Source: an uncultured Candidatus Poseidoniales archaeon
GTDB lineage: Archaea > Thermoplasmatota > Poseidoniia > Poseidoniales > Thalassarchaeaceae
NCBI GenBank assembly: GCA_902560445.1
Contig: CACELO010000008.1
Span: 1 to 46,784 of the forward strand
DNA: 46,784 nucleotides
Reading direction: 5' to 3'
Position numbers and translations under genes: made by a program. The notes under the pieces are model-generated. The model was given only the letters and a program-made list of their open reading frames with translations, ran no database searches and was not told the origin of the DNA. How positions within the stretch are numbered: the first letter of the stretch is position 1; each line of letters starts with the position of its first letter. Below are positions 872 through 13,143 of the stretch, piece after piece.

Positions 872-1651
872 TCAACAAAGTTCTGCAACAGAACCGACCA
901 CTAAACTAGGATTCTGAGGTGCAGCCCCCAAGTCCTCACGAGTGGCTTCACCAGAGAGAACCAGTACTCCATGAACCCCTGCCCTATCGGCCATTTCCAT
1001 ATCTGTATACAATCGATCTCCTACCATTGCACACTCTTCTGGCGAAAGGCCCAGTTCCTCCACTTTGTGAAGAATCATTCCCGCATTTGGTTTACCAGTA
1101 ATATGGCAAGGTTTCTTTCCAGTCGTTGCTTCAAACAATGCCATGTATGCTCCAGTATCTGGCAACCCTCCATCAGGTGATGGACAAACCATATCTGGGT
1201 GGCTAACTACCATGGGAACACCTCGGTGCATTAGGATACTAGCAGTGCTCAATTTCTCGTAAGTTATTTCTGTATCATATCCAAGAACGACGTATTGCGG
1301 GTCGGTCGACCTAGTTTCTATTCCACCATCTTCCAACATTTCTCGCATACCTTCTGTTCCAACAAGATAGGTTTGGTTTATTCCTTCGGCCACCAACCAT
1401 GAGAGTAAATCATGAGTTGATAATAGTACATCATCATCTGTCGCAGGAATATCCATTGCGTGTAATTTTGTGACGTATTGTTTCACAGAGCGGCTTGAGT
1501 TATTTGATAAAAAATACCTCTTGATTCCGGCTTCATCAAGCCGTGAGAGAAATTCTAACGAACCCTCAATCAATTTATCTCCAAGATATATTGTCCCGTC
1601 CAAATCAAGGAATACTGCTTTAATTCCTGCTAGAGTTTCGTCTAGATTCAT
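872..1651 (-). CDS. HAD superfamily phosphatase (NagD/4-nitrophenylphosphatase-like, subclass IIA)
   Basis: A 259-residue protein with all HAD motifs. Motif I is DLDGT (16-20), with Asp16 the expected nucleophile and Asp18 the acid/base. Motif II is FLSNNSS, motif III the lysine of TGKPNAGM, and motif IV MVGDRLYTDMEM. The long cap between motifs II and III, and the order of motifs, fit the HAD-IIA group (NagD, phosphoglycolate and nitrophenyl phosphatases). Such enzymes dephosphorylate small metabolites in the cytoplasm; the substrate cannot be read from sequence. The ATG at 1651 is 9 bases after the stop of the geranylgeranyl reductase gene, so the two are probably co-transcribed. Confidence 0.88.
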   Translation of the reverse strand: MNLDETLAGIKAVFLDLDGTIYLGDKLIEGSLEFLSRLDEAGIKRYFLSNNSSRSVKQYVTKLHAMDIPATDDDVLLSTHDLLSWLVAEGINQTYLVGTEGMREMLEDGGIETRSTDPQYVVLGYDTEITYEKLSTASILMHRGVPMVVSHPDMVCPSPDGGLPDTGAYMALFEATTGKKPCHITGKPNAGMILHKVEELGLSPEECAMVGDRLYTDMEMADRAGVHGVLVLSGEATREDLGAAPQNPSLVVGSVAELC

Positions 1652-1660
1652 GATATCACT

Positions 1661-3037
1661 TCAGGGAAGGACGATAGTCTTGAACAGGAACCAAGGATTC
1701 CAAAGTTCCGTCTGAGCCTCTTTACTGGCGATCATTTCCGACATTATCGTACCAATTTCTTTCTTACGATTCGCCTTTTTTATGAACCAATTTGTAAGCC
1801 TCTTCCACTTCATCATTTTCTGAAGAGTTTTTGAGTTTGTCAACTCTTTACCTAATATTGCCCACAACTCATCCATATATGCTTCGGCAGCCTCTGAAGT
1901 AAAACCACTTGAATGCAAATCCTTATCGAAATGTTTGCTGGTTAACTTGGCAGAAAGCAGGGCATTTCCAATACCTTCTCCACTGAACGGATCAACTAGG
2001 CTGGCGGCGTCTCCAACAGTCATTGCACCCGCCATAGCCCCTCTCCTTGGTTGATGAGAAGGGGGATTTTTCCTAGGAGAGCCAAATGGCAACTGCCAGC
2101 CTTTCCCAGAACCGGGGACCATTTCGGAATTAGCAAATCTTTCTTTGAACCGGGGGTGCTCGCGAATTAACCATTCTTGGGTTTTCTTTAATCCTCTCCA
2201 CCCACCTTTCTTCTTGGCTTCTCTTTCCTCGGAAATCAGCATCCCAATTCCAACGTTGACTACGCCTTCACCCACAGGGAATAACCAAAAATATCCAGGT
2301 ATCACTTCATCAACAAAGTGGATTTCGATTTGCCCTTCGTTCCCTTCGAGGCCCTCCACATTACCCCAATATTCTCGATAACCGCCACAAAAATGATCAT
2401 CATCACGGTGAGGCTCATCAAAAACATCGAGAGTTATTGTTCGAGATACGGGACAATTGTACCCCCCCGCTCCAATGGTAAGAGCGGAGTTGAATACTAA
2501 TTCCTCGGGAGAGCTTCTTCCAAAATTTCCTTTGACTCCTGTGATACGACCACTCTCCCCTTTTCCTTCGACAGTAACTTCAGTCACTGTAAAGCCTTGA
2601 ATTACGGACCCACCATTTTCCCGAACAATCTCTTGACACTTATGGAACATGAGATAGTCAAATTGCTCTCTAGGTAAGGAGTAACCAGATTGTAAACCCT
2701 GTTTTTCGTAAGCCTCTTTTGGCAACATTACCCGAACTTCGGAACCGTTTGCACTTCCGAATACAATCGAGTCAACCACGTAGTGTGGCGACTCATCAAT
2801 CAATTCAAGTACACCTAATTCTTTGGCGTGAGATAGAGATTTACCGCCAACAGCATCACCACAAGGCTTGTCTCTTGGCCAAGCGCCCTTTTCGATTAGA
2901 AGTACCCTACAACCGTTCATCGCATTATAGGCAGCAGCAGCGGAACCGCCCGGGCCCCCACCTACTACGATGACATCAAAATTGGCTCCATCTTCAGGGA
3001 TTTCCCCCGTCTCGATAGGCTGTTTGTAGTCCAGCAT
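1661..3037 (-). CDS. Geranylgeranyl reductase family FAD-dependent oxidoreductase
   Basis: 458 residues. The N-terminal Rossmann fold carries VVGGGPGGSAAA (24-35), followed by the acidic IEKG that binds the FAD ribose. DKPCGDAVGG (56-65) is the PxxYxWG/CG-type motif of geranylgeranyl reductases, and GDAASLVDPFSGEGIGNAL is the second FAD motif. Archaeal members saturate the geranylgeranyl chains of ether lipids; others reduce chlorophyll side chains or quinone precursors. In this context hydrogenation of archaeal membrane lipids is the likely role. ATG 3037 is preceded by a good Shine-Dalgarno sequence (GAGGGGACAGC before ATG). The gene is divergent from cutA and heads a run with the HAD phosphatase. 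Confidence 0.88.
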   Translation of the reverse strand: MLDYKQPIETGEIPEDGANFDVIVVGGGPGGSAAAAYNAMNGCRVLLIEKGAWPRDKPCGDAVGGKSLSHAKELGVLELIDESPHYVVDSIVFGSANGSEVRVMLPKEAYEKQGLQSGYSLPREQFDYLMFHKCQEIVRENGGSVIQGFTVTEVTVEGKGESGRITGVKGNFGRSSPEELVFNSALTIGAGGYNCPVSRTITLDVFDEPHRDDDHFCGGYREYWGNVEGLEGNEGQIEIHFVDEVIPGYFWLFPVGEGVVNVGIGMLISEEREAKKKGGWRGLKKTQEWLIREHPRFKERFANSEMVPGSGKGWQLPFGSPRKNPPSHQPRRGAMAGAMTVGDAASLVDPFSGEGIGNALLSAKLTSKHFDKDLHSSGFTSEAAEAYMDELWAILGKELTNSKTLQKMMKWKRLTNWFIKKANRKKEIGTIMSEMIASKEAQTELWNPWFLFKTIVLP

Positions 3038-3120
3038 GCTGTCCCCTCAGTAGCGCCTAACGTCCTCAGGCATTCAAACTTCACCATCTAATTGATTGCC
3101 TCTACCTATTGCCGGAACAC

Positions 3121-3438
3121 ATGGAAACCGCCGTCTGGGTCGTTCAAACTACACTACCAGGAAATTGGTCTGAGGCAATGGTTGGTGAATGGTGCTTCGA
3201 CTTAGTAGATGCGGGACTTATGGCATGTGCTTATCACTCAAAAATAAGATCAACTTATCGTTGGGGGGGAGCCATTCAGAGCGACCCAGAATGGAGCATT
3301 CAATGCAAAACAAGCGAAACTAGTAAGCAATCCCTCATAGATAAAATTCACTCAAAACACCCGTACGATTTACCTATGGTGGTTTGGTTCAAGGCAGAAA
3401 CCTCCGCGGATTTCGCAGAGTGGGTAAATGAAAAGTAG
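3121..3438 (+). CDS. cutA: CutA-family divalent-ion tolerance protein
   Basis: 105 residues from ATG 3121; a TTG at 3109 in the same frame would add four residues. The protein follows the CutA pattern throughout: an opening strand VWVVQTTLP, the helix DLVDAGLMACAY (classically LVEERLAACVN), the strand STYRWGGAIQSDPEW (IYRWEGKI), the helix ending KIHSKHPYDLPMVV (LHPYEVPEI), and a final FAEWVNEK. CutA forms small trimers with a ferredoxin-like fold, is linked to copper and other divalent-metal tolerance, and is widespread in archaea. The downstream PLP enzyme is separated by a T-rich stretch and a strong palindrome, so co-transcription is uncertain. Confidence 0.9.
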   Translation: METAVWVVQTTLPGNWSEAMVGEWCFDLVDAGLMACAYHSKIRSTYRWGGAIQSDPEWSIQCKTSETSKQSLIDKIHSKHPYDLPMVVWFKAETSADFAEWVNEK

Positions 3439-3445
3439 CCCAATA

Positions 3446-3471
3446 TTTTTCTTTGAACCCTAAGGGTTCAA
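3446..3471 (+). promoter_or_regulatory. T-run plus perfect 8-3-8 palindrome between cutA and the PLP enzyme
   Basis: A run of five T (3446-3450) is followed by TTGAACCC-TAA-GGGTTCAA (3453-3471), a perfect 8-bp inverted repeat with a 3-base spacer. It begins 15 bases after the cutA stop and ends 29 bases before the ATG at 3501. It could be an operator for the downstream sulfur amino-acid gene, an RNA leader hairpin, or part of a cutA terminator. Sequence alone does not decide. Confidence 0.5.
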
Positions 3472-3500
3472 TTGATTTGCTCTTCCTATGTCCGAGGGAC

Positions 3501-4703
3501 ATGAATGAGAAACACTCCGACAAGGAGTTCGCTACCCGAGCAGTATGGTCCGGCACACAAAATATAGAGGGAGCAGCAGTCACCCCGATTTTCAATACAG
3601 CCACATATCAACTGACAGACGAGCGCTATGCTGGATGGGCCGCAGGAGCTCAGCACACTGCACTTTACTCCCGACTTTCCAGCATCAACTCGGAAGGAGT
3701 TGCAATGAAAGTAGCGCAACTAGAAGGCGCCGAGGACGGAGAGGTCTTTGCAAGCGGCATGTCTGCAATATCAACGACTCTGATGTCTCTCTTGTCCAGA
3801 GGAGACCACATGGTAGCAAGCGCAGACTGTTACGGAGGATCTTATGGTTTGATGACAGAGGATTTGCCTAGATTTGGGATTGAAGTTACTATGGCGGATA
3901 TGAGAGACCCAGCATCTTATGAAGCCGCAATACAAGAGAATACCAAGATTCTCTACGTTGAAACTATTACCAATCCAGTAATCAAAGTCTGTGACTTAGA
4001 AGCGATGGCTTCCTTGGCAAAGAAGCACGATTTGATATGCATAGTAGACAACACATTCGCAACACCATGGGCCTGTAATCCAGTCGATTACGGCTTCGAT
4101 TTGGTTATTCATTCGGGGACCAAATATCTCGGAGGCCATTCAGATCTAATTGCTGGAATAGTAGTTGGTCGAAAGGACCTCATCGCAGAGATATTCCCTC
4201 GAAAAGTCCACTTCGGTGGAGCCGCAGACCCACACATGTGCTATTTGCTTGAAAGGGGAATGAGAACTCTTCATGCAAGAATGCCAATCCACACCTCAAA
4301 TTCTGCAGAATTAGCCAGACGACTCGATGCGCATGATATGATAGAACAGGTCAATCACCCTAGTCTTCCGAGCAGCCCAGATTACGAAGTAGCTCAACGA
4401 ACTGTTCCAAAGGGAACTGGTATGATTTCATTTATCGTAAAAGGTGGGGATGAAGCGGCTTTGAAATTCATGAGAAGCTTGGAGATAATTTTCGAAGCAA
4501 CCAGTCTAGGAGGAGTCGAAAGCCTGGTCGAATGCCCATTCAATTCTAGTCACATGTTCGTTCCTGAAGACGTTAGAAATGATGCGGGAATAGTCCCCGG
4601 ATTCGTGAGGATGAGCGTCGGAATTGAGGATGTTGAAGACCTTTGGAAAGACATCTCATCCGCACTTGCAGAAACAGAACAACACCTAGCAACACTAGCT
4701 TGA
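3501..4703 (+). CDS. PLP-dependent Cys/Met metabolism enzyme (cystathionine gamma-synthase/lyase or methionine gamma-lyase type)
   Basis: 400 residues from ATG 3501; an upstream TTG at 3453 lies inside a palindrome and is unlikely to be used. The fold type I PLP signature is clear: IHSGTKYLGGHSD with Lys208 as the Schiff-base lysine, DNTFATP with Asp183 contacting the pyridine nitrogen, ASGMSAIS as the phosphate-binding segment, and YSR (56-58) as the tyrosine/arginine pair that contacts the neighbouring subunit's PLP. Members interconvert cysteine, homocysteine and methionine or cleave them. The usual 'NPT' after YxR is replaced by SSINSEG, so the precise reaction cannot be assigned. The next gene is a LysE-type exporter 9 bases downstream, which suggests a shared amino-acid substrate. 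Confidence 0.88.
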   Translation: MNEKHSDKEFATRAVWSGTQNIEGAAVTPIFNTATYQLTDERYAGWAAGAQHTALYSRLSSINSEGVAMKVAQLEGAEDGEVFASGMSAISTTLMSLLSRGDHMVASADCYGGSYGLMTEDLPRFGIEVTMADMRDPASYEAAIQENTKILYVETITNPVIKVCDLEAMASLAKKHDLICIVDNTFATPWACNPVDYGFDLVIHSGTKYLGGHSDLIAGIVVGRKDLIAEIFPRKVHFGGAADPHMCYLLERGMRTLHARMPIHTSNSAELARRLDAHDMIEQVNHPSLPSSPDYEVAQRTVPKGTGMISFIVKGGDEAALKFMRSLEIIFEATSLGGVESLVECPFNSSHMFVPEDVRNDAGIVPGFVRMSVGIEDVEDLWKDISSALAETEQHLATLA

Positions 4704-4712
4704 GGTGCGGTC

Positions 4713-5312
4713 TTGGACGAGGCAGATTTCGTAGCACTGCTAGTGTTCATCGTACCAATGTGCTTCACTCCGGGCCCAAACAATCTACTCTGCGCCGCTC
4801 ATGGCTCTCAACACGGCTTTCGTGCAACAATCCCCATGACTCTCGGAATGTTAGTCGGCTGGTCTAGTTTGGGCGTGGCAGTAGGTCTCGGCACAGTCTA
4901 TATTGAAGAAAATCAAGAAATTTTCCAAACTTTAACTTGGATAGGTGCAGCATATATCGCTTACCTAGGTTGGAACTTTGCAACCTCCAATCCAAAAATG
5001 CAAGAATCCGAAAAAACAGAGCTACTTGGCTTCAAAACGGGACTAATTCTACAAATTGTGAACGGCAAAGCATGGATCCATTTCCTCGTAATGATGACGA
5101 GTTGGGGACTCTTGTTTGGAAGTGGCGTATCTGGGAAGATTCTGCTAGTGGCAATCAATGCCGCCATCGGCTATCCAGCGGTACTGACTTGGGCAGCATT
5201 TGGTCTGGGCCTCAGCAAAATTTTCTCTTCCCCAGAAAAGACCAGAATCTTGAACGGAGTACTAGGTACATCACTAATTCTAGTAGCAATTTGGGTAGCC
5301 CTTCCCCATTAA
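4713..5312 (+). CDS. LysE/RhtB-family amino-acid exporter
   Basis: 199 residues starting at TTG 4713, the only reasonable start after the previous stop at 4703. The N-terminal membrane segment ends FTPGPNN (18-24), the hallmark of the LysE/RhtB family, followed by GFRATIPMTLGMLVGW and hydrophobic segments near 38-60, 68-90, 110-135, 145-170 and 178-197. The family exports lysine, homoserine, threonine, cysteine or related amino acids through the cytoplasmic membrane. The gene is probably co-transcribed with the Cys/Met-metabolism enzyme. It ends in TTAA (5309-5312), which also supplies the stop codon of the convergent gene. Confidence 0.88.
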   Translation: MDEADFVALLVFIVPMCFTPGPNNLLCAAHGSQHGFRATIPMTLGMLVGWSSLGVAVGLGTVYIEENQEIFQTLTWIGAAYIAYLGWNFATSNPKMQESEKTELLGFKTGLILQIVNGKAWIHFLVMMTSWGLLFGSGVSGKILLVAINAAIGYPAVLTWAAFGLGLSKIFSSPEKTRILNGVLGTSLILVAIWVALPH

Positions 5313-7003
5313 GCAGACCACTGGGCACCAGATACTTCCGCTAACCAATTCATAGAATTGACGTAGTCTTCTTTTGCATCTGGGTCGTCCTTGTTTAGTA
5401 AGGAATCAGCCGCATCCCAAAGTGCAGTCATTGCAGGGACCCAATCTCCCCCTTTGTCTCGACTTGCTTCATCGAACCTCCAAGCATCTGACTCGGTTCG
5501 CTCGTGAACAACAAGCCACGCCCATCCCATTGCCGCATCCAGCCCCTTTGCCTTTCGACACATTGCAACCGTGGAAGCAACACCGTCTTCAGCTCCCTTT
5601 CTAATCAGGGATTCTGCAAAGTCAAGCGGTGAAGGCAAGACTCCTGCTTCCCAAGGCAACCGCTCAAGTTTTCTTGCCGAAGAAACCGACTCATTGAGTT
5701 CTCTGAGGAATGCACCGAATCCTTGCTTCCTTTTCGATTGTTTATTGTGAATAGCCTCAGCCTCTTCCCCTACGAGGCCAAACATAGATTGCAGTATTTC
5801 CATTCCGTTATCCTCCCAAAGAGCAACCAATACGGGGTGGCAAGAACTATCCTCGAATCGAATAACATCATTTTCTGCTTCCAATACAACTCCATCTGAG
5901 CGAACTAAAACACCTCCTTCCAACCCATCCAAAACGATTCCAATTGCTTCTTTTTCATCTTCACTCCCTTGCATATGAGAGAGGAAATCGGTACGCGAAT
6001 CAACATCAAACCAATGATTACCGGTGATGTAACCCTCTTCGATTGAACCCAAAATAGCATTCCTACAAGAGCGTGCGAGTTTATCATCAACTAGTGCTAG
6101 ATTCATCCAAGCGAGTAGAACTTCATCAAGACTTTCTCTCGCTTGAGTAGGCAATTCCCGATCACTAGGCCATCCCGCCGGCCTCCACATCCAATCCGCC
6201 TCAGCCACTGCAGACATCTTTGGCGGCATCATTCCAAGGGCAATCGAGGGAACGAACGGATTCTCACCCGTCTTTGCCAATGCCGCACCGGTAATACCAG
6301 CCTTAATTCCCCCAAATTCTAGTTTCAACCAACCGGAATCTGTGAATTCATCATTTTCGACTATCTCTGCCTCCAAACCTTTCGAGAATCTTACATCGTC
6401 TCCACTCAAATCTATGCTCGATTTTCTCAAACTATCTTCTATCCATTCAGCGGGAGCGCGGGGCTCTTGCCCCGAACAGACAAACCCGCCGTCCCAGGAG
6501 AAGAACCACCAGCCGGCCTTGGCATGGTCGTCCCAAACCAATAATCTGAGACGTGGGTTAGTAAAATTCTGAATCCCAACCATGTGGGATTGTTTTCCGT
6601 TTCCTCTTCGAATAAAACTCGACGCTCCATAGATGGGACTATTGTATACAGAAACCGTCGATGTATCTGCTTCCCCTGCTGCGAGTAAACTACCCGCTAA
6701 GGCTCTCCCGACAACATCGCCTCTTCTCTTCCCCATTCTCTTGCCTAACCATCTACGGTCATGTCGCTTCTTGGAAATGGCATCTACGTCTCTCAAAGTA
6801 GCCGCTAACATATCTCTCCGAGGCTTGCCTAAATTACATTCAATGTCTGGAACGAAAACCTCTGGGTTATCCAACAAAGTCTCAAGATTTTTATCAATTC
6901 TCTGCTGTATCTGCTTCGAGGCCTTTTTTATTCCACGAACACGAACCTTCCTCTTGCGATTTTTATCGCCGGGAAAACTCACCTCGGCTGGGGGTCGTGC
7001 CAT
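5309..7003 (-). CDS. Unrecognised 564-residue soluble protein with a basic N-terminus
   Basis: I do not recognise a family. The protein starts at ATG 7003 behind an excellent Shine-Dalgarno sequence (GGAGGGGACAAT before ATG), so it is surely expressed. Residues 14-95 are strongly basic (runs such as KNRKRKVRVRGIKKASK and GKRMGKRRGD), which suggests nucleic acid or ribosome contact. The middle is rich in aromatic strand-like stretches (RLLVWDDHAKAGWWFFSWDGG). The C-terminal third is helical with several tryptophans. There is no signal peptide or membrane segment. It lies 24 bases downstream of dphB on the same strand, so a link to translation is possible but unproven. A GC-rich inverted repeat (CGGGGC-TCTT-GCCCCG, 6459-6474) sits inside the coding region. 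Confidence 0.8.
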   Translation of the reverse strand: MARPPAEVSFPGDKNRKRKVRVRGIKKASKQIQQRIDKNLETLLDNPEVFVPDIECNLGKPRRDMLAATLRDVDAISKKRHDRRWLGKRMGKRRGDVVGRALAGSLLAAGEADTSTVSVYNSPIYGASSFIRRGNGKQSHMVGIQNFTNPRLRLLVWDDHAKAGWWFFSWDGGFVCSGQEPRAPAEWIEDSLRKSSIDLSGDDVRFSKGLEAEIVENDEFTDSGWLKLEFGGIKAGITGAALAKTGENPFVPSIALGMMPPKMSAVAEADWMWRPAGWPSDRELPTQARESLDEVLLAWMNLALVDDKLARSCRNAILGSIEEGYITGNHWFDVDSRTDFLSHMQGSEDEKEAIGIVLDGLEGGVLVRSDGVVLEAENDVIRFEDSSCHPVLVALWEDNGMEILQSMFGLVGEEAEAIHNKQSKRKQGFGAFLRELNESVSSARKLERLPWEAGVLPSPLDFAESLIRKGAEDGVASTVAMCRKAKGLDAAMGWAWLVVHERTESDAWRFDEASRDKGGDWVPAMTALWDAADSLLNKDDPDAKEDYVNSMNWLAEVSGAQWSA

Positions 7004-7027
7004 ATTGTCCCCTCCATATTCCCCGCT

Positions 7028-7855
7028 TCATGCTTGGTGTCGTCTGCGCTCGTAAGCGTCTCGCTCCAAACCAGTAAATTCGGCAGGTAAAATCAAGCAA
7101 TGTATTCGCCCATCCGCTAATTTCGCTAAATCTTCTAAATCCCCTGATACTACTCTCTGGTCAGAAGTTCCAAGATCACTCAGAAGAATTGCATTCCAAT
7201 TTGTAATTGCAGTAGTCATACTCTCTCTGACTCCCCCCTCGTGCTCAACGAGTTTCTCAAACATCGCTTGAAGGATTTCAACCACTTGTTTTGGTTGCAT
7301 AGGTTGGGGTTTTTCAACACCCATGCCCGTTGGGTCCAAATCTAGCAAAACCAAGGTATGCAGATTATTGGTATAATTTGAATCAATCATTTCCAGAGGA
7401 GAGGTAGGAAGGTATTCTCCATAAGCGAAAGGAAGTGTTACCTGTCGACCAAATCGATATGATTGCAGACCGGATAATGAAACAGCCAGAGAAGTCGCAG
7501 ACAGACCAGGGATTACAGTGAAATTGATACCTTGCTCGGCACAATGTGATTCTAAATCGACATGGGTTGTTGCTTGCATAGGATCTCCAACAACTAACAA
7601 AGCAACCGAATTCTCATTTGCTAGGGATAAAATCTCGGTGGGGTCTTCGACCATGGGCCGCATTGCCTTTTTCCACCCCCCAACCAAACCCTCTAACTGA
7701 CCTTCTTGATTTTCTGGTAAGGTTGCAGTGTACCCCTCTAGAAATCGAAAATCACAAGCTCTAGCATGCTCTATGGCATCGGCCGTCATCAAGCCAAGGT
7801 TACCCGGTCCAAGGCCGATTAGCCAGAGACCCGGAGGGAGCCCGCCGTCCGTCAT
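7028..7855 (-). CDS. dphB: Diphthine synthase (diphthamide methyltransferase)
   Basis: 275 residues if it starts at the ATG of MTDGG (7855); an ATG at 7891 would add 12 residues but run into the start of the divergent gene. It is a tetrapyrrole-methylase-fold SAM enzyme: LWLIGLGPGN at the N-terminus, then FRFLEGYTATLP (DphB has 'EEYTS'), VVGDPMQATTHVDL, VIPGLSATSLAVSLSGLQSYRFG and TLVLLDLDP. Every one of these segments has its counterpart in archaeal Dph5/DphB, which methylates the modified histidine of elongation factor 2 on the way to diphthamide. It is divergent from the Trm5 gene and is followed closely by an unknown basic protein. Confidence 0.88.
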   Translation of the reverse strand: MTDGGLPPGLWLIGLGPGNLGLMTADAIEHARACDFRFLEGYTATLPENQEGQLEGLVGGWKKAMRPMVEDPTEILSLANENSVALLVVGDPMQATTHVDLESHCAEQGINFTVIPGLSATSLAVSLSGLQSYRFGRQVTLPFAYGEYLPTSPLEMIDSNYTNNLHTLVLLDLDPTGMGVEKPQPMQPKQVVEILQAMFEKLVEHEGGVRESMTTAITNWNAILLSDLGTSDQRVVSGDLEDLAKLADGRIHCLILPAEFTGLERDAYERRRHQA

Positions 7856-7889
7856 GGTGAAGCGGGGGGCGTGCCTGCCAGTCATCAAC

Positions 7890-9086
7890 ATGATGCGCCA
7901 CTTGGTCGTTCCAAACCGCGAGGTCGAGGCCGTTTTAGGCCACGTCCGTGCTCGTGGATGGGGTTCTCATAGCCACCGAGTATTCTCTAGCGAAGACGGA
8001 CACTCCCGCCTAATTCCCTTAGATATCGGCGCCCCCCTAGAACTACCAGCAGCCTTAGAATATCCAATTGAGATGCATAAAGGCGTTCCCGATGAAAAAA
8101 TAGAGACAGATTGGCTTGCTCTTCTCACATCGGAAGTAAGCCAACAGACAATACAAGAAAGGGGGGAATCCTGGCCATCAAATCATGAGTTTGTAGGTGA
8201 TATGATGATTGTCAGAATAGACGATGAAGTCGCTCAATTTACGGATTCTATTGCAAGAGCAAAACTCGGAGCACACCCCCACATTCGCTTACTATTAGCC
8301 GATGAGGGAGTAGATGGTGAATTCAGAATCAGACAACTGAAGCCGATAGGCGCTAGGTTAGCCGATAGAGTTCTAGCTGGCCCCAGCCTAGAATTTGCTC
8401 CACCCGAACTCCTGACCACAGAGGTCGCCGTAAAAGAAAGCGGACGCGTTATTCTATGCGATCCTACGAAAGCATACTTCTCTACTAAATTACAAACAGA
8501 AAGACTCGAAACTCTCGCCTTAGCCAAAGAATTACGAAATGAAATCGGTCGCCCTTTGAGAATTGCAGACCCGTTTTGTGGAGTCGGCCCCGCTCTCGCA
8601 ACCTTACTCGCCGAGGCCGATTTAGTCTCTGATTTACTTGCTACCGACCTTAACCCAGACGCAGTAAAACTACTCATGGCAAACCTCTCAAAATGGGATA
8701 GAAGAACATATCCAGAAGGTGCAATCGAGCTTCAGCGTATCCATGAAAACCGACTAGTTGGAATGGCGGATGCACTAACTTTGAGCGATGATTCAGAGAT
8801 CGCAGGAAAATGGGATCTAGTATTGGTCAACTTACCTCATCGCACGATTGAATTCCTTCCTGTAATTATTCCACTACTGAACCGGAATTCTCCTTCTATG
8901 ATTAGAGGCAGAGCAATTGTAGATGAATCAGAAATTGAGCAGGCAAATGAAACGATTCGAGCCTGTCTCCCTAAACTGATGCCGAATAAACCACAACCAT
9001 CTCTGAAAATTAAGCGAGACTACAGTTCTACATTACGCCTTTGCTCCTTCCAAGCGTGGCTAAGTCCTCAGGAGGAAACGAATTGA
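7890..9086 (+). CDS. trm5: tRNA (guanine37-N1)-methyltransferase, Trm5 family
   Basis: About 398 residues. The likely start is the double ATG at 7890/7893 (MMRHLVVPN). The C-terminal SAM domain shows ADPFCGVGPALATLL (D-FAGVGPF in archaeal Trm5), the acidic ATDLNPDAVKLLMANL (ALDxNPxAVxxxxENI) and VLVNLPHRTIEFLP (the MNLPHSAxEFL motif). Trm5 methylates G37 next to the anticodon and prevents frameshifting. The N-terminal part is divergent, as expected for the D1/D2 domains that recognise the tRNA body. Its TGA (9084-9086) overlaps the TTG start of the next gene, so the two are translationally coupled. Family assignment is strong; the exact position modified is inferred. Confidence 0.85.
   Translation: MMRHLVVPNREVEAVLGHVRARGWGSHSHRVFSSEDGHSRLIPLDIGAPLELPAALEYPIEMHKGVPDEKIETDWLALLTSEVSQQTIQERGESWPSNHEFVGDMMIVRIDDEVAQFTDSIARAKLGAHPHIRLLLADEGVDGEFRIRQLKPIGARLADRVLAGPSLEFAPPELLTTEVAVKESGRVILCDPTKAYFSTKLQTERLETLALAKELRNEIGRPLRIADPFCGVGPALATLLAEADLVSDLLATDLNPDAVKLLMANLSKWDRRTYPEGAIELQRIHENRLVGMADALTLSDDSEIAGKWDLVLVNLPHRTIEFLPVIIPLLNRNSPSMIRGRAIVDESEIEQANETIRACLPKLMPNKPQPSLKIKRDYSSTLRLCSFQAWLSPQEETN
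9070..9085 (+). promoter_or_regulatory. Shine-Dalgarno and TTG start deciding the ligase start
   Basis: AGGAGG (9070-9075) lies 7 bases before TTG (9083-9085). The TTG overlaps the Trm5 stop codon (TTGA at 9083-9086). This fixes the ligase start at 9083 rather than an in-frame TTG at 9041 and points to re-initiation of ribosomes arriving from trm5. Confidence 0.8.
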
Positions 9087-10759
9087 AAAATATCCTCAGT
9101 TCTCTTGCAGAGAAAGCCGATGAAAACCCAGACAAGATAGCTTTCATATTCCCCAAAAAAGACACACTCGAGACTGATTACGACCAAATAAGCTTCAAAG
9201 AATTAGAAGAAAAAAGTAGCAGAGCTGCAGATTTTCTCTGGCGCCATGGTTTCCACAGTGGTGTTGTTACACTTGTATTGGTTAAGCCCAGTATAGATTT
9301 TGTCATCCTCCTCTATGGCATGCTGAAAACAGGTGCAATTCCATTACTCCTCCCTAGCCTGAATATTCGTAGTAGATTTGGAAGAAGAGAATTAAGAAAA
9401 ATTCTGAAAAGAGCAAATCCGAGGGGGATTATCGGTTCTACATTCAGCCTCATAGTAAGCAAATTCTTCCTTCTTTCAAACAAGCCAGAAAGAGAACTTA
9501 AATTTTCAAAATTAAAGAAACATTTCTCTAACCATTTAAGCCCTAAATCATTCGAAATAAACTCTGAGCTAGACTGGGGTAAAACATCTGCTTTTGTGAA
9601 GTATACAACGGGAACCACCGGTCCCGCTAAGGGCGTAATTTATACTCATAGTATGTTACATTCCCATCTGAAAGTATTACACTCACAGGGCCTTACTGAC
9701 AGAGACATATTCTACGGTAGGGGAGGAACTCTACTAGTCCATCCAATTCTTGGTATCACATCAATAGTAAACATGTCATCACCAAAACAGACCACAGGAA
9801 TAGACATCGTCCTTGCTTGCAAAAAATGGAAAGCAACGACCGCCTTTCTCTCACCACCTTCGGCAATCAATCTAGCAGGTTATATTGCTACAGAACCTCG
9901 ATCTGAGAATCATAAGATGTTGCCTTCAGTTAGGAGATTGTATGTGGGCGGAGAATCTGTAGCGGCAAAAGTTGCCGAAATAATAGAACCTCATCTTTCT
10001 GATGACCGCCCATCGGACGGTGGTTTTCATTTGGTCTATGGCGCTACCGAAGGATTTCCCCTGTGCTACGCACCATATTCTACGATTACAGAAACTGAAC
10101 ATCAGACATCTTCAGGAAGAGGTGTATGTTTAGGCAGAGAGGCCATTGACGTGAAATTGAGAATATTATCCTACGATAGTTCAGCAGAACTCAATGATTT
10201 ACCCGTCATGAAAAACTCAGACCTAATATCACAAATCCCAATTGGAGAAATAGCGGTTAATGGCCCTGTAGTTTATTCGTGTTTGATAGGAGAAGATGAA
10301 GATACTTTCGGAGGCCAATTATCGTGGGCTATCGATAATACCGACCAGACAAAATGGCATAGAACAGGAGATTTAGGTTACAGAGATGAAGAAGGAAAGA
10401 TTTGGCTTGTAGGTAGAAAATCACATTCAGTAGAATTAGTAGACGGCTCATCCCTTTACACAAAACAGATAGAAGAGTTCTTCAACTCAAACATTGGAAT
10501 CAGAACAGCACTTGTTCAGGGGTTACAAAACGATACCCCAATTTTATTGGTCGAAAAATCCAACAAAAACTGGTCGAAAACAAAGCCTTTGATTATACAA
10601 CAGTTACCTAACCTTTCAGAATTGTATGGGAAAAATTTGAGACTCGAAATTATGCTATTCGAAGAAGAATTTCCTGTTGACAGAGGGCATGAGGCAAAAA
10701 TAGAGAGAGAAAAACTCAACTCTTGGGTAGTCAATAAGTTACAAAATAGCACACCCTAA
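9083..10759 (+). CDS. OleC-like acyl-AMP ligase (possible olefin beta-lactone synthetase)
   Basis: 558 residues of the ANL adenylating superfamily. The P-loop YTTGTTGPAKG is at 174-184, the A5 motif YGATE at 319-323, and the A7/A8 motifs HRTGDLGYRDEEGK and GRKSH near 426-450. Beyond the superfamily motifs, several stretches resemble bacterial OleC: YGATEGFP, the GRGVCLGR segment after it, GEIAVNGPVV, GRKSHSVE and YTKQIEEFFNSNIGIRTALV. OleC activates beta-hydroxy acids with ATP and closes a beta-lactone. No OleA, OleB or OleD homologue is visible nearby, so the substrate may differ, and an ordinary fatty-acyl-AMP/CoA ligase is the alternative. The gene overlaps the trm5 stop and is followed 9 bases later by an anchored hydrolase. 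Confidence 0.75.
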   Translation: MKNILSSLAEKADENPDKIAFIFPKKDTLETDYDQISFKELEEKSSRAADFLWRHGFHSGVVTLVLVKPSIDFVILLYGMLKTGAIPLLLPSLNIRSRFGRRELRKILKRANPRGIIGSTFSLIVSKFFLLSNKPERELKFSKLKKHFSNHLSPKSFEINSELDWGKTSAFVKYTTGTTGPAKGVIYTHSMLHSHLKVLHSQGLTDRDIFYGRGGTLLVHPILGITSIVNMSSPKQTTGIDIVLACKKWKATTAFLSPPSAINLAGYIATEPRSENHKMLPSVRRLYVGGESVAAKVAEIIEPHLSDDRPSDGGFHLVYGATEGFPLCYAPYSTITETEHQTSSGRGVCLGREAIDVKLRILSYDSSAELNDLPVMKNSDLISQIPIGEIAVNGPVVYSCLIGEDEDTFGGQLSWAIDNTDQTKWHRTGDLGYRDEEGKIWLVGRKSHSVELVDGSSLYTKQIEEFFNSNIGIRTALVQGLQNDTPILLVEKSNKNWSKTKPLIIQQLPNLSELYGKNLRLEIMLFEEEFPVDRGHEAKIEREKLNSWVVNKLQNSTP

Positions 10760-10768
10760 CGGCCGGTT

Positions 10769-11806
10769 ATGAAAATCGACCCAAAGAGCCGACCTGTTCA
10801 AATTACAGTAGCTCTGATGATTGTACTTCCCACAGTCTATCTCGGTCTAGGATATGTTATCGCATCCCAAGCAATAGCCGCAAAACCCGGTTGCTATGTT
10901 TGGGAGGATAATCATCCAGATTCGTGGACTTCTTTCGATGATTGGGAATCTTTTGGAACCGGAGAGGTTGCAGAAGAGAGAGTAGCCATTAGGCAAAACT
11001 TCGATGCTAGTCCGTACCAAATGGACTCCTATGAAAATGCAAGCTTCCCACCCAGAGGAGACGACCTGTCGATTACCCTTAGAGGGTGGTATGTCGAAGT
11101 TGATCCAGAAGCGCCAGTTGTTATCCTGACCCACGGAATGCCCTCTAATGGAAATTGCAAACCAGAAATGCTCCTCATGCAAGCCTTCCTTGCCGAGGGG
11201 GGTATCAATTCGCTTTCCTTTAGTTTGAGGAATTACGGTTACAGCGACCAAGTCAGCGACTACATTGCAGTCGGACAGGTTGAGTATGTCGATATTCTTG
11301 GAGCCTATGATTGGCTAATTGATTCCAAAGGATACCAAGCCGGAGAAGTCGGATTGGCCGGAATCTCACTTGGTGGAACAGCAGCCTTTGCCTTTGAGGA
11401 TGAGCCGGGTATTGCGGCGATGTGGCTCGATAGTGCAGTTCTTGACTTCCCGCTAGTTGTTCGCAATGAATTGGGAAGAATGGGCTTTCCCGCATTCCTT
11501 GGAGGAGCAGCAATCACAGTTGGTGGTTGGATGGCAGGCGCCGATCTCGATGGACGAAACCCAATTCATGCTGCTGATGCCGCAGGAGACCGCCCAGTTT
11601 TCCTCACTCATGGGCTTGAGGACACCAGAGTGTCAGTAGAACATGCAGAGCGATTTGAGGAGAGAATGACCCAGAATGGTGGTAATGTCGAAACTTGGTA
11701 TGTCGAAGACAGGGCACACGTTGATGCGATGTGGAGTGATTCGGAAGAATACGAACACCGTCTGACTTCATTTTTCCATGATGCATTTGGTATGAATGGC
11801 AGTTAA
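10769..11806 (+). CDS. Membrane-anchored alpha/beta hydrolase (serine esterase/lipase type)
   Basis: 345 residues. One hydrophobic segment near 11-34 is a signal anchor or uncleaved signal, so the catalytic domain is probably outside. The alpha/beta-hydrolase pattern is clear: VILTHGMPSNG (118-128, oxyanion region), LAGISLGG (196-203) with Ser200 as nucleophile, LTHGLEDTRV with the likely acid, and RAHVDAMW with the likely histidine. OleB, the beta-lactone decarboxylase, uses an aspartate nucleophile, so this is not OleB. Start ATG 10769 is 9 bases after the OleC-like gene, implying joint expression. Esterase, lipase or lactonase activity would all fit. Confidence 0.85.
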   Translation: MKIDPKSRPVQITVALMIVLPTVYLGLGYVIASQAIAAKPGCYVWEDNHPDSWTSFDDWESFGTGEVAEERVAIRQNFDASPYQMDSYENASFPPRGDDLSITLRGWYVEVDPEAPVVILTHGMPSNGNCKPEMLLMQAFLAEGGINSLSFSLRNYGYSDQVSDYIAVGQVEYVDILGAYDWLIDSKGYQAGEVGLAGISLGGTAAFAFEDEPGIAAMWLDSAVLDFPLVVRNELGRMGFPAFLGGAAITVGGWMAGADLDGRNPIHAADAAGDRPVFLTHGLEDTRVSVEHAERFEERMTQNGGNVETWYVEDRAHVDAMWSDSEEYEHRLTSFFHDAFGMNGS

Positions 11807-11816
11807 TGACGCCACT

Positions 11817-11830
11817 ATCTTTTTGCTTTC
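11817..11830 (+). terminator. T-rich run after the hydrolase
   Basis: ATCTTTTTGCTTTC, with five consecutive T at 11820-11824, lies just after the hydrolase stop at 11806. Pyrimidine/T runs of this kind terminate archaeal transcription. There is no accompanying hairpin. Confidence 0.35.
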
Positions 11831-11848
11831 ACATACATAGAGTATAGC

Positions 11849-12348
11849 GTGCCAATAGAAATTCTCGGAGCGATTGCCGCCGATGCTGGGGGAGAATCGA
11901 TGCACAAAAGCAAAGAAAAAAAGAAACTCGAAGCCGCCAAAGACGATCCAGAAGAATATGCAAGAGTCTTGGAAGAAATCGAAAAAAGAAAGGAAAGAAC
12001 AAGGCAGCTGTTTATCTGGTCGGTTTGTTTTTGATTATTCTGGTTTTTCAGTCAGCCCCAACGTTAGGCACCTTTGTCGTAATCAGTTTGACATTCTACG
12101 CGCTAAGAAACGAAAAAACGTCTCCGCAAGGAGATGAAGCCGAAGCTCGAACCGATTCAGACACAAGCCCCAGGACACTCTCTCCATCAGAACGCCAAGA
12201 ACTAATGTCAAGAAAGTGTTCAGTACCTGGATGTAACACAGGAAATTTTCGGATGACAGATTATTGTCATAAACATCAAGCCCACATTTCATCAAATTCA
12301 GAACCAGAAACTGAGGAAGAAGAAAATTGGTGGGGAGACGGGAATTAG
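11849..12348 (+). CDS. Small membrane protein with C-terminal Cys/His motif, split by an apparent frameshift
   Basis: The reading frame from GTG 11849 gives a charged helix (KSKEKKKLEAAKDD, LEEIEKRKER) and stops after 61 codons at 12034. In the -1 frame, codons from about 11996 onward read KNKAAVYLVGLFLIILVF, a good membrane helix, and continue through a second hydrophobic stretch to 12348. That part ends with CSVPGC...YCHKH, a possible zinc site of Cys/His type. One missing A in the run of six (GAAAAAAG, near 11985) would restore one continuous protein. I therefore read this as one gene carrying a real or sequencing frameshift; two overlapping genes, the second starting at TTG 12025, are the alternative. 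No known family. Confidence 0.55.
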
Positions 12349-12424
12349 TGGCGCCCCGACCGGGATTTGAACCCGGGTCGAAGCCTCGACAGGGCTTCAT
12401 GATAGGCCACTACACCATCGGGGC
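12349..12424 (-). tRNA. tRNA-Asp (anticodon GTC), CCA encoded
   Basis: On the minus strand the acceptor GCCCCGA pairs with TCGGGGC. The anticodon stem AAGCC/GGCTT encloses the loop CTGTCGA, giving anticodon GTC (Asp). The T arm is CCGGG-TTCAAAT-CCCGG, and GCCA closes the 3' end, so CCA is encoded. There is no intron. The CCA complement (12349-12351) directly abuts the stop codon of the convergent gene (12346-12348). Confidence 0.95.
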
Positions 12425-12558
12425 AGGAATCGGCACGACTACCGTTCTCTATTTCAATCGCTCGCGTGGAGCGGGTGTTGATATTTTCACAAATTGGTAT
12501 TAGTTATGGAAGAAAAAACGGGGTATTGTTCATCACCCTTCTTCTGCCGCAATTCTCT

Positions 12559-13143
12559 ATGAGTGGGAGCCGCCTTGTCATCGATGTAATCGACAATGGC
12601 GGCCAATGGACACATCGAGAATGGCGTATGTTACGTTACATGGGAGTAGATACCCAAATCCTCGCCAACGATACTCCAATCTCTGAACTTCGAAAATTAG
12701 ACGGATTGGTTCTTTCAGGTGGCGCCGCCCGCGTTGGATTAACCGGAGAACTAGGCAATTGTGCGGCTTATCTAGAGCTAGCTGTTCCAATCTTAGGGAT
12801 ATGTGCCGGCCATCAATTCATGGCTGGCCATTATGGCGGGCGAGCCGCAGAAGCGCCTGCTCCTGAGTTTGGTGCAGCGACAATCAATCTCATCGATGGC
12901 GGAGGGCCATTATTCGATGGCACTCCGGAATCTCAGACTGTATGGGAGAGCCATAATGATGAGGTCGTCGAATTACCTGAGGGGTTCAGAATCACAGCTC
13001 GTAGCGAATCATGCGAGATTCAAGCCATGGAGAACTCAGCATTAAACCGATTTGGATTACAATTCCACCCAGAAGTGAATGACTCCGAGTATGGTTCAAA
13101 GATATTCGAGAACTTCGTAGACATCTGTCGCAGGGCCCTTTAG
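12559..13143 (+). CDS. guaAA: GMP synthase glutamine amidotransferase subunit
   Basis: 194 residues from ATG 12559; longer readings run back into a non-coding leader. It is a class I glutaminase: LVIDVIDNGGQWTHR at the N-terminus, LVLSGG (50-55), LGICAGHQF with nucleophile Cys82, and LQFHPEV with His170 and Glu172 completing the triad. In archaea the glutaminase (GuaAA) and the ATP-pyrophosphatase/synthetase (GuaAB) of GMP synthase are separate proteins, and length and motifs match the former. It releases ammonia from glutamine for XMP amination. The partner gene is not in this window. The stop codon sits in the loop of a GC-rich hairpin (13133-13148). Confidence 0.92.
   Translation: MSGSRLVIDVIDNGGQWTHREWRMLRYMGVDTQILANDTPISELRKLDGLVLSGGAARVGLTGELGNCAAYLELAVPILGICAGHQFMAGHYGGRAAEAPAPEFGAATINLIDGGGPLFDGTPESQTVWESHNDEVVELPEGFRITARSESCEIQAMENSALNRFGLQFHPEVNDSEYGSKIFENFVDICRRAL

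Follow-up and report, generated by a model that had tools for sequence, protein, structure and literature searches.

A candidate marine group IIb lineage of OleC-related ligases, probably carried as a one-gene exchangeable cassette

OleC, the LstC-type ligases and the PRK09274-type proteins named 'fatty acid CoA ligase family protein' (NF006754) are the closest described relatives of the gene studied here. This gene encodes an OleC-like adenylate-forming ligase (P0001) of a marine group IIb (MGIIb) archaeon and lies in a stretch of 46,784 nucleotides (the window; contig CACELO010000008.1 of assembly GCA_902560445.1, uncultured Candidatus Poseidoniales, Thalassarchaeaceae), between trm5, a Trm5/TYW2-family tRNA methyltransferase gene (P0003), and a gene for a membrane-anchored serine hydrolase (P0002). 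The original prediction took ligase and hydrolase for a two-gene route that makes a lactone or activated acyl and opens it at the membrane. We consider it likely that the ligase instead represents an MGIIb-specific lineage, the third next to OleC/LstC and the remaining PRK09274-type ligases, that it is carried as a one-gene exchangeable cassette, and that the hydrolase is not its partner.

OleC has the YGATE, HRxGD, GRK and FPVDxxHxAKIxRE patterns in common with the MGIIb ligase, but its own A4 region is unlike that of the MGIIb ligase, which also falls outside the clade formed by OleC and LstC (OleC+LstC). The PRK09274-type proteins are the best family match and stand on the ligase's side of a branch with 100/100 support, but the ligase scores under the NF006754 cut-off and shares none of the columns specific to the non-OleC members. 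The LstC-type ligases of Rhodococcus and Streptomyces plasmids gave the six best matches to the ligase in a plasmid collection (25.8–29.0% identity, 94–100% query coverage). In the four plasmid records inspected, which have lipstatin-type clusters, that ligase stands beside a ketosynthase-III-type gene, an OleD-like reductase, a nonribosomal peptide synthetase and a formyltransferase, none of which adjoins the MGIIb ligase; the labels LstA–LstD and the link of these clusters to lipstatin are presumed by us. No description of the MGIIb ligase clade was found in the open-licence literature searched for marine group II (MGII) beta-lactones and Poseidoniales acyl-CoA synthetases.

Relationship of the ligase to OleC and its relatives

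The ligase matched the AMP-binding family of Pfam (PF00501, 104.9 bits). Its top NCBIfam family was PRK09274/NF006754 (296 bits; cut-off 478), and the best family outside the OleC/PRK09274 group reached only 88 bits. The OleC equivalog models NF045786 and NF045785 gave 228.7 and 212.9 bits, about a quarter of their cut-offs (900 and 850, respectively), the 228.7 bits being the score on OlefBLtnSynXan (E = 1.1e-67). The similarity to OleC was far above chance, and the model match was full-length (residues 3–551). When the same OleC models were run on reference rows, two gammaproteobacterial OleC rows (L135 and L138) scored up to 1007.6 bits, a row from an ole cluster (L136) 643–667 bits, two rows of the Thermoplasmatota family f11, both taken from ole-type clusters, 523–587 bits, a lipstatin-type ligase 427–536 bits, and four non-OleC PRK09274 members 145–267 bits.

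Tree 1 comprised 47 rows, without the near copies L099, L106, L108, L101 and L066, and tree 2 comprised 42 rows, with more OleC rows and with 16 rows left out (long branches, near copies and some ordinary synthetases). A contig-edge fragment (L130) was left out of all trees, and the PRK09274-type sampling reached Pseudomonadota, a few plasmids and Thermoplasmatota only. In tree 1, the 12 MGIIb ligases formed a single clade (100/100) that was sister to OleC+LstC (93/87); in tree 2, the MGIIb clade stood beside OleC+LstC without a resolved branching order. Both trees split the MGIIb clade together with the whole OleC-containing group from the ordinary acyl-CoA synthetases (100/100), and in both the OleC+LstC clade excluded the MGIIb ligase (98/95 and 97/99, respectively) and the LstC rows formed one clade without it (100/99 and 100/100, respectively). 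The nesting inside ordinary acyl-CoA synthetases that the original prediction had named as evidence against itself was seen in neither tree. It is fairly safe to regard the MGIIb ligase as a separate lineage of the OleC-containing group; among several possible placements of its clade, the best is as sister of the beta-lactone synthetases.

All four OleC-type segments quoted in the original prediction were located in the ligase, namely YGATEGFP (residues 319–326), GRGVCLGR (345–352), GRKSHSVE (444–451) and a fourth at 467–478. YGATE, HRTGD, GRK and the A10 lysine were invariant in 13/13 ligase rows (the names A3, A5 and A10 are those we take to apply to these motifs). The A10 tail reads FPVDxGHEAKIxRE in the MGIIb ligases and FPVDxRHNAKIxRE in most of the OleC/LstC rows shown, and other rows resemble IPxDxRHxxKVDY. 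The MGIIb ligases share 7 of the 15 columns that separate OleC+LstC from both other groups, the remaining 8 not being shared. They have 0/9 of the columns specific to the other PRK09274-type ligases and 2/24 of those specific to ordinary synthetases.

Several closer identities were considered and are not supported by these data. The ligase is not OleC proper, as the model cut-offs are not reached, it lies outside the OleC+LstC clade, and the 13 ligase loci (the window and L066–L077) gave no match to OleA, OleB or OleD. Nor do the data support membership of LstC, whose rows form a clade without it and whose lipstatin-type cluster genes do not lie next to it, or descent from the ordinary acyl-CoA synthetases, given the 100/100 split in both trees and the few specific columns kept. 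The predicted OleC-like beta-lactone synthetase thus held as a member of the OleC-containing group (100/100 split), but not as a beta-lactone synthetase proper (exclusion at 97/99, cut-offs missed).

The absence of the Ole partners, also part of the prediction, was borne out, as neither the window nor any of the 12 other ligase loci gave an OleA-, OleB- or OleD-like match (E up to 1e-3). The search for OleA- and OleD-type proteins was widened, with ketosynthase III (KSIII) and OleD-type (PF01073) models, to ten MGIIb genomes, i.e., 8 of the 14 with the ligase and two without. The best PF01073 match in these genomes was 82–90 bits vs 195–206 bits for true OleD neighbours. At most one KSIII_C protein was present in each genome and none in G000, which is incomplete; OleB was not sought genome-wide. 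The single KSIII scored, from the ligase-free genome G005, was FabH (378.7 bits), and the KSIII of G009 looks different and may be contamination.

Coupling, exchange and distribution at the trm5–tRNA-Asp site

The product of trm5 matched PF02475 (33.6 bits) and PF25133 (33.0 bits), each above its cut-off, and a trm5 match was present in 49/59 relatives. The ligase TTG shares bases with the trm5 stop codon TGA, and the relatives L074 and L070 have an ATG at the equal position, which supports the start call. A GGAGG stands 6–7 nt before the ligase start in all ten trm5 tails that lead into a ligase, and it is missing from the three inspected trm5 tails (3/3) without a ligase behind; the translational coupling of the ligase to trm5 claimed in the prediction is, on this pattern, well supported. 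A promoter scan of 8900–12500 gave 4 promoter-like sites vs 5.6 expected and 7 terminator-like sites vs 3.5 expected, and an Rfam scan of 8900–12600 gave nothing besides the tRNA.

The histories of the ligase, trm5 and the hydrolase differ. Between the window and G010, the synonymous divergence (dS) was 0.091 for the ligase, 0.807 for trm5 and 0.355 for the hydrolase, and between the window and G004 it was 3.165, 0.409 and 0.538, respectively. DNA identity to G010 rises from about 0.78–0.91 to 0.94–0.99 at the ligase start and decays within the hydrolase, and identity to G004 is 0.62–0.72 across the ligase and 0.80–0.97 in the flanks read. Two deeply diverged ligase alleles (64% identity) occur in much more alike surroundings, and one allele is nearly identical between genomes with differing trm5 genes. 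These data are most simply explained by homologous exchange that swaps the ligase, largely alone; the tract shared with G010 also includes the hydrolase start. Omega was 0.06–0.29 wherever dS was computable, with both ligase and hydrolase under purifying selection, and by this measure the ligase appears to be a working, selected gene.

The ligase was found in 14 of the 148 family genomes and in 4 of the 11 genera, one copy being a contig-edge fragment, as well as in 6/59 relatives; the sister family had it in 0/23 genomes. A search of genome contigs returned 13 confirmed loci, of which 12 were MGII-type and the 13th was an ordinary 21% match. In a phylum sample of 389 genomes, the NF006754 cut-off was passed in three only, all of family f11. 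Within the searches made, the ligase clade is found in only one MGIIb family. Viral contigs, scanned once with alignment A1, yielded no confirmed relative. A defence-gene reading was rejected because five proteins, including the ligase and the hydrolase, had no match in PADLOC.

The hydrolase of the window matched PF00326 (42.4 bits; cut-off 22.6) and the esterase of PDB entry 5g59 (phmmer E = 7.5e-16, residues 101–336), from which it differs in that its hydrolase domain is preceded by a longer stretch and that its N-terminus, as judged by eye, carries a hydrophobic segment. Membership of the alpha/beta serine hydrolases of the S9/esterase type is indicated by these matches. The exported-looking protein with Ser200 in GISLG, placed nine bases after the ligase by the prediction, was seen as described. 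It was rejected as an OleB, which we take to have a haloalkane-dehalogenase-like fold with an Asp nucleophile; besides its Ser200, it has no significant BLAST similarity (best E = 1.8) to the OleB-like protein of L127, which has AHDWG.

The pairing of the two genes, on which the predicted route depends, proved not to be conserved among relatives. The hydrolase adjoins the ligase in 5 of the 13 ligase loci and is absent from the other 8. In the window's genus, the two genes lie side by side in all five ligase-bearing genomes. A hydrolase homologue occurs in 28/59 relatives, 14 of them at ≥50% identity; 5 of the 28 have the ligase, and it is missing from 23 of the 28 and from 9 of the 14. G022 has the ligase and no hydrolase match, and G007 and G005 have the hydrolase behind trm5 at the window's site, with no ligase. 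This neighbourhood survey and the disagreeing synonymous divergences led us to reject the two-gene lactone route, and the hydrolase looks like another resident of the variable site, a chance neighbour rather than a partner.

The interval from trm5 to the 3' end of tRNA-Asp (window 9087–12348 and the equivalent interval in L181–L197) was observed as a variable cargo site in the family. Fifteen such intervals without a ligase could be read through to the tRNA; their continuity means that the absence is not an assembly gap. Some are empty, some hold other cargo (a GDP-mannose-dehydratase-like gene or further open reading frames, ORFs), and two hold the hydrolase. In the window, small ORFs lie between the hydrolase and tRNA-Asp (11849–12348); they have a Cys/His-rich tail (CSVPGCNTG...CHKH), and several genomes have such ORFs here (10 ORFs in cluster C8). 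In another genus, the site carries a 608-aa ORF (L185, 285–2111 of the reversed locus, G025) that is by eye lipoprotein-like with a different alpha/beta hydrolase domain.

The ligase is also found in other settings. Five g6-type loci lie after trm5 and run onward to guaA with no hydrolase, and tRNA-Asp lies between in the three scanned. Three loci of g5/g11 type face an MFS transporter; where upstream sequence is available, in two of them, the ligase stands behind a membrane/kinase-like protein of 469–472 aa. This protein (L074 6583–8001, L070 6584–7993 and L231 523–1932) has several hydrophobic segments and, by eye, a C-terminal kinase-like stretch with DIHAGN and LVDGE; its L074 copy (P0004) had no match in Pfam, NCBIfam or PADLOC and nothing in PDB at E = 1. 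P0004 is present in 8/148 family genomes, with the ligase behind it in three. An obligate pairing with P0004 was rejected because the other five (one a fragment) are not among the 14 genomes with the ligase; the flanks were inspected for four of these five. A weak hint at lipids comes from L074 (g11), which has a fatty-acid-desaturase-type gene a few genes upstream of the ligase. Coordinates are collected in Table 1.

Table 1. Positions of the features discussed, in the window and (last four rows) in loci of Thermoplasmatota family f11
Feature	Position	Strand	Remark
Trm5/TYW2-family tRNA methyltransferase gene (trm5, P0003)	7854..9086	+	upstream of the ligase, overlaps the ligase start
Shine-Dalgarno-like GGAGG within the trm5 tail	9071..9075	+	7 nt ahead of the ligase TTG
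OleC-like adenylate-forming ligase (P0001), 558 aa	9083..10759	+	TTG 9083, stop 10757-10759
Phosphate-binding loop YTTGTTGPAKG (A3), residues 174-184	9602..9634	+	motif alignment
YGATE (A5), residues 319-323	10037..10051	+	its A is an OleC/LstC-specific column
Lys539 (A10 lysine) in FPVDxGHEAKIxRE	10697..10699	+	aligned with OleC/LstC FPVDxRHNAKIxRE
Membrane-anchored serine hydrolase (P0002), 345 aa	10769..11806	+	ATG 10769; 9 nt past the ligase stop
Ser200 codon of GISLG, hydrolase	11366..11368	+	serine nucleophile motif
tRNA-Asp(GTC)	12349..12424	-	far border of the variable site; 3' end towards the cargo
f11 ole-type locus L129 (G085:C36)	5077-10583		
f11 ole-type locus L127 (G118:C64)	4300-7977		
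f11 ole-type locus L128 (G077:C109)	1610-5320		
f11 OleC-like contig-edge fragment, L130 (G121)			

Possible chemistry and competing explanations

The ligase occupies the variable trm5–tRNA-Asp stretch in two genera, where it is probably translated from the Shine-Dalgarno-like site in the trm5 tail, and in two other genera it sits behind the unrelated membrane/kinase-like gene, with homologous exchange presumably moving it among relatives. The enzyme is expected to bind ATP and a free carboxylic acid, perhaps 3-hydroxylated and perhaps lipid-derived, and to form an acyl-adenylate through the conserved A3/A5/A7/A8 set and the A10 lysine. The acyl-adenylate would then be resolved by OleC-like ring closure through the 3-hydroxyl, or passed to another acceptor. 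Lactone chemistry is not implied by descent, because the MGIIb clade lies outside OleC+LstC, and the ligase is a fair beta-lactone candidate because it shares the A10 tail and specific columns with OleC/LstC. We regard beta-lactone formation by the MGIIb ligase as a possibility, short of an expectation.

A number of observations weigh against the ligase being a third lineage close to OleC or a mobile cassette. Its scores on the OleC models fall within the range of the non-OleC members, so that by raw score it is no closer to OleC than they are. The stem of the MGIIb clade is long in both trees (1.37 and 1.61, respectively). Approximately unbiased (AU) tests do not reject three other placements of the MGIIb ligases, namely with the other PRK09274-type rows (p-AU 0.21), on the side of the ordinary synthetases (p 0.216) and with OleC without LstC (p 0.161); the second of these leaves room for a position at the base of the PRK09274 group. 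Only 5 of the 14 columns common to the PRK09274 group vs ordinary synthetases are kept in the MGIIb ligases. Three residues invariant in OleC+LstC (G98, L325 and C443 in the window's numbering) differ in all 12 MGIIb rows, and together with the unlike A4 region they suggest that the substrate probably differs from that of OleC; substrate and even chemistry may differ. The predicted structure of the ligase is weak (mean pLDDT, a predicted confidence score, of 56.9), too weak for a reading of the active site. Many genomes are incomplete, which makes the 14 of 148 a lower bound. Finally, no integrase was recognised at the variable site and no tRNA-end repeat was found there; the window contains a single copy of a 24-base piece from the end of tRNA-Asp, and the repeats listed around the cargo are short, with two copies each.

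The ligase may instead be an acyl-CoA or acyl-AMP ligase for fatty acid use, activating acids for beta-oxidation or transfer without forming a lactone. Passages of two papers report that MGII degrade fatty acids (PMC6461757; PMC6336850), one of them for all MGII genera (PMC6461757). Together with the placement outside OleC+LstC, the OleC-model scores no better than those of non-OleC members and the altered acyl-pocket region, this makes such an enzyme a real possibility, though not one that we would expect. However, only two ordinary-synthetase columns are kept, the A10 tail is OleC/LstC-like, and the distribution of the gene is rare and patchy, which does not resemble that of a core degradation enzyme. 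Fatty acid degradation could also supply 3-hydroxy acids to a lactone-forming enzyme. It seems quite unlikely that the ligase is a stand-alone archaeal beta-lactone synthetase, free of OleA and OleD, that closes 3-hydroxy acids from beta-oxidation to reactive beta-lactones and is carried as a single-gene, allele-swapped MGIIb cassette. If true, it would be a chemical tool held by a few MGIIb lineages and not by their close relatives.

A route in which a lactone or activated acyl is made by the ligase and then opened by the anchored hydrolase agrees with the adjacency on one strand, the 9-nt gap, the purifying selection on both genes and the constant pairing in the window's genus. We nonetheless consider it very improbable, given the 8 ligase loci that have no hydrolase, the genomes with one gene and not the other (G007, G005 and G022), the wider spread of the hydrolase among the 59 relatives (28 vs 6) and the disagreeing divergences; moreover, the N-terminal segment would have the hydrolase facing outwards, with the ligase on the inside. 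Activation of a carboxylate on a modified guanosine, with the ligase as a tRNA-modification partner of Trm5/TYW2, is hardly to be expected at all: the translational coupling to trm5 in two genera speaks for it, but in g5 and g11 the ligase stands behind a different gene, and of the 49 relatives in which trm5 was matched, 43 lack a match to the ligase. A small-molecule competition cassette, in which frequency-dependent selection keeps a rare, swapped allele of a ligase that makes a reactive or signalling compound, would suit the variable site with cargo differing between genomes, the two diverged alleles in alike surroundings, the allele shared despite differing trm5 genes, and the best plasmid matches in lipstatin-type clusters. 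It is nevertheless unlikely, as no recognised resistance, export or tailoring gene accompanies the ligase in all settings, neither ligase nor hydrolase has a PADLOC match, and the lipstatin-type ligases are at most 29% identical and come from plasmids, a biased sample.

If the MGIIb ligase closes beta-lactones, uncultured archaea of the ocean would possess this chemistry without the remaining Ole pathway, through a gene that spreads alone. Should it be no more than an unusual acid-activating enzyme, the trm5–tRNA-Asp site still shows a single metabolic gene that appears to swap among close MGIIb relatives, with a ribosome-binding-like sequence sitting in the tail of the host gene at the swap site. 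Adjacency at a variable site in compact genomes is weak evidence for a shared pathway.

Ole-type clusters in family f11 and other ligase loci

Within the Thermoplasmatota, family f11 has an OleC-like protein in 4 of 8 genomes (476–689 bits on NF006754). Three of these proteins score above the cut-off, and the fourth is a fragment at a contig edge. Each of the three intact loci has an OleD-like gene (PF01073, 195–206 bits) and an alpha/beta-hydrolase gene next to the OleC-like gene. On the OleD models, whose cut-off is 580 bits, the best scores of the two OleD-like proteins examined were 384–399 bits, and the two cluster hydrolases scored by NCBIfam were haloalkane-dehalogenase-like, as in OleB. 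G085 has an additional OleA/LstB-like pair with 38% and 31% identity to the plasmid LstA and LstB, respectively. The neighbours of the f11 loci look archaeal, with a proS of family I above its cut-off in L127 and a pantoate kinase below its cut-off in L129. As judged from these matches, the ole-type clusters in three f11 genomes contrast with a 2020 survey, passages of which state that ole clusters were not found in Archaea (PMC7158056).

Non-OleC ligases were also seen in distinct surroundings. L139, with three neighbours that have no NCBIfam match, has gene sizes resembling those of the cluster in L131 (1174–8444; L083 is listed alongside), in which a non-OleC PRK09274-type ligase occurs with lipid-kinase-like, prenyltransferase-like, PPDK-like and WbuX-like proteins.

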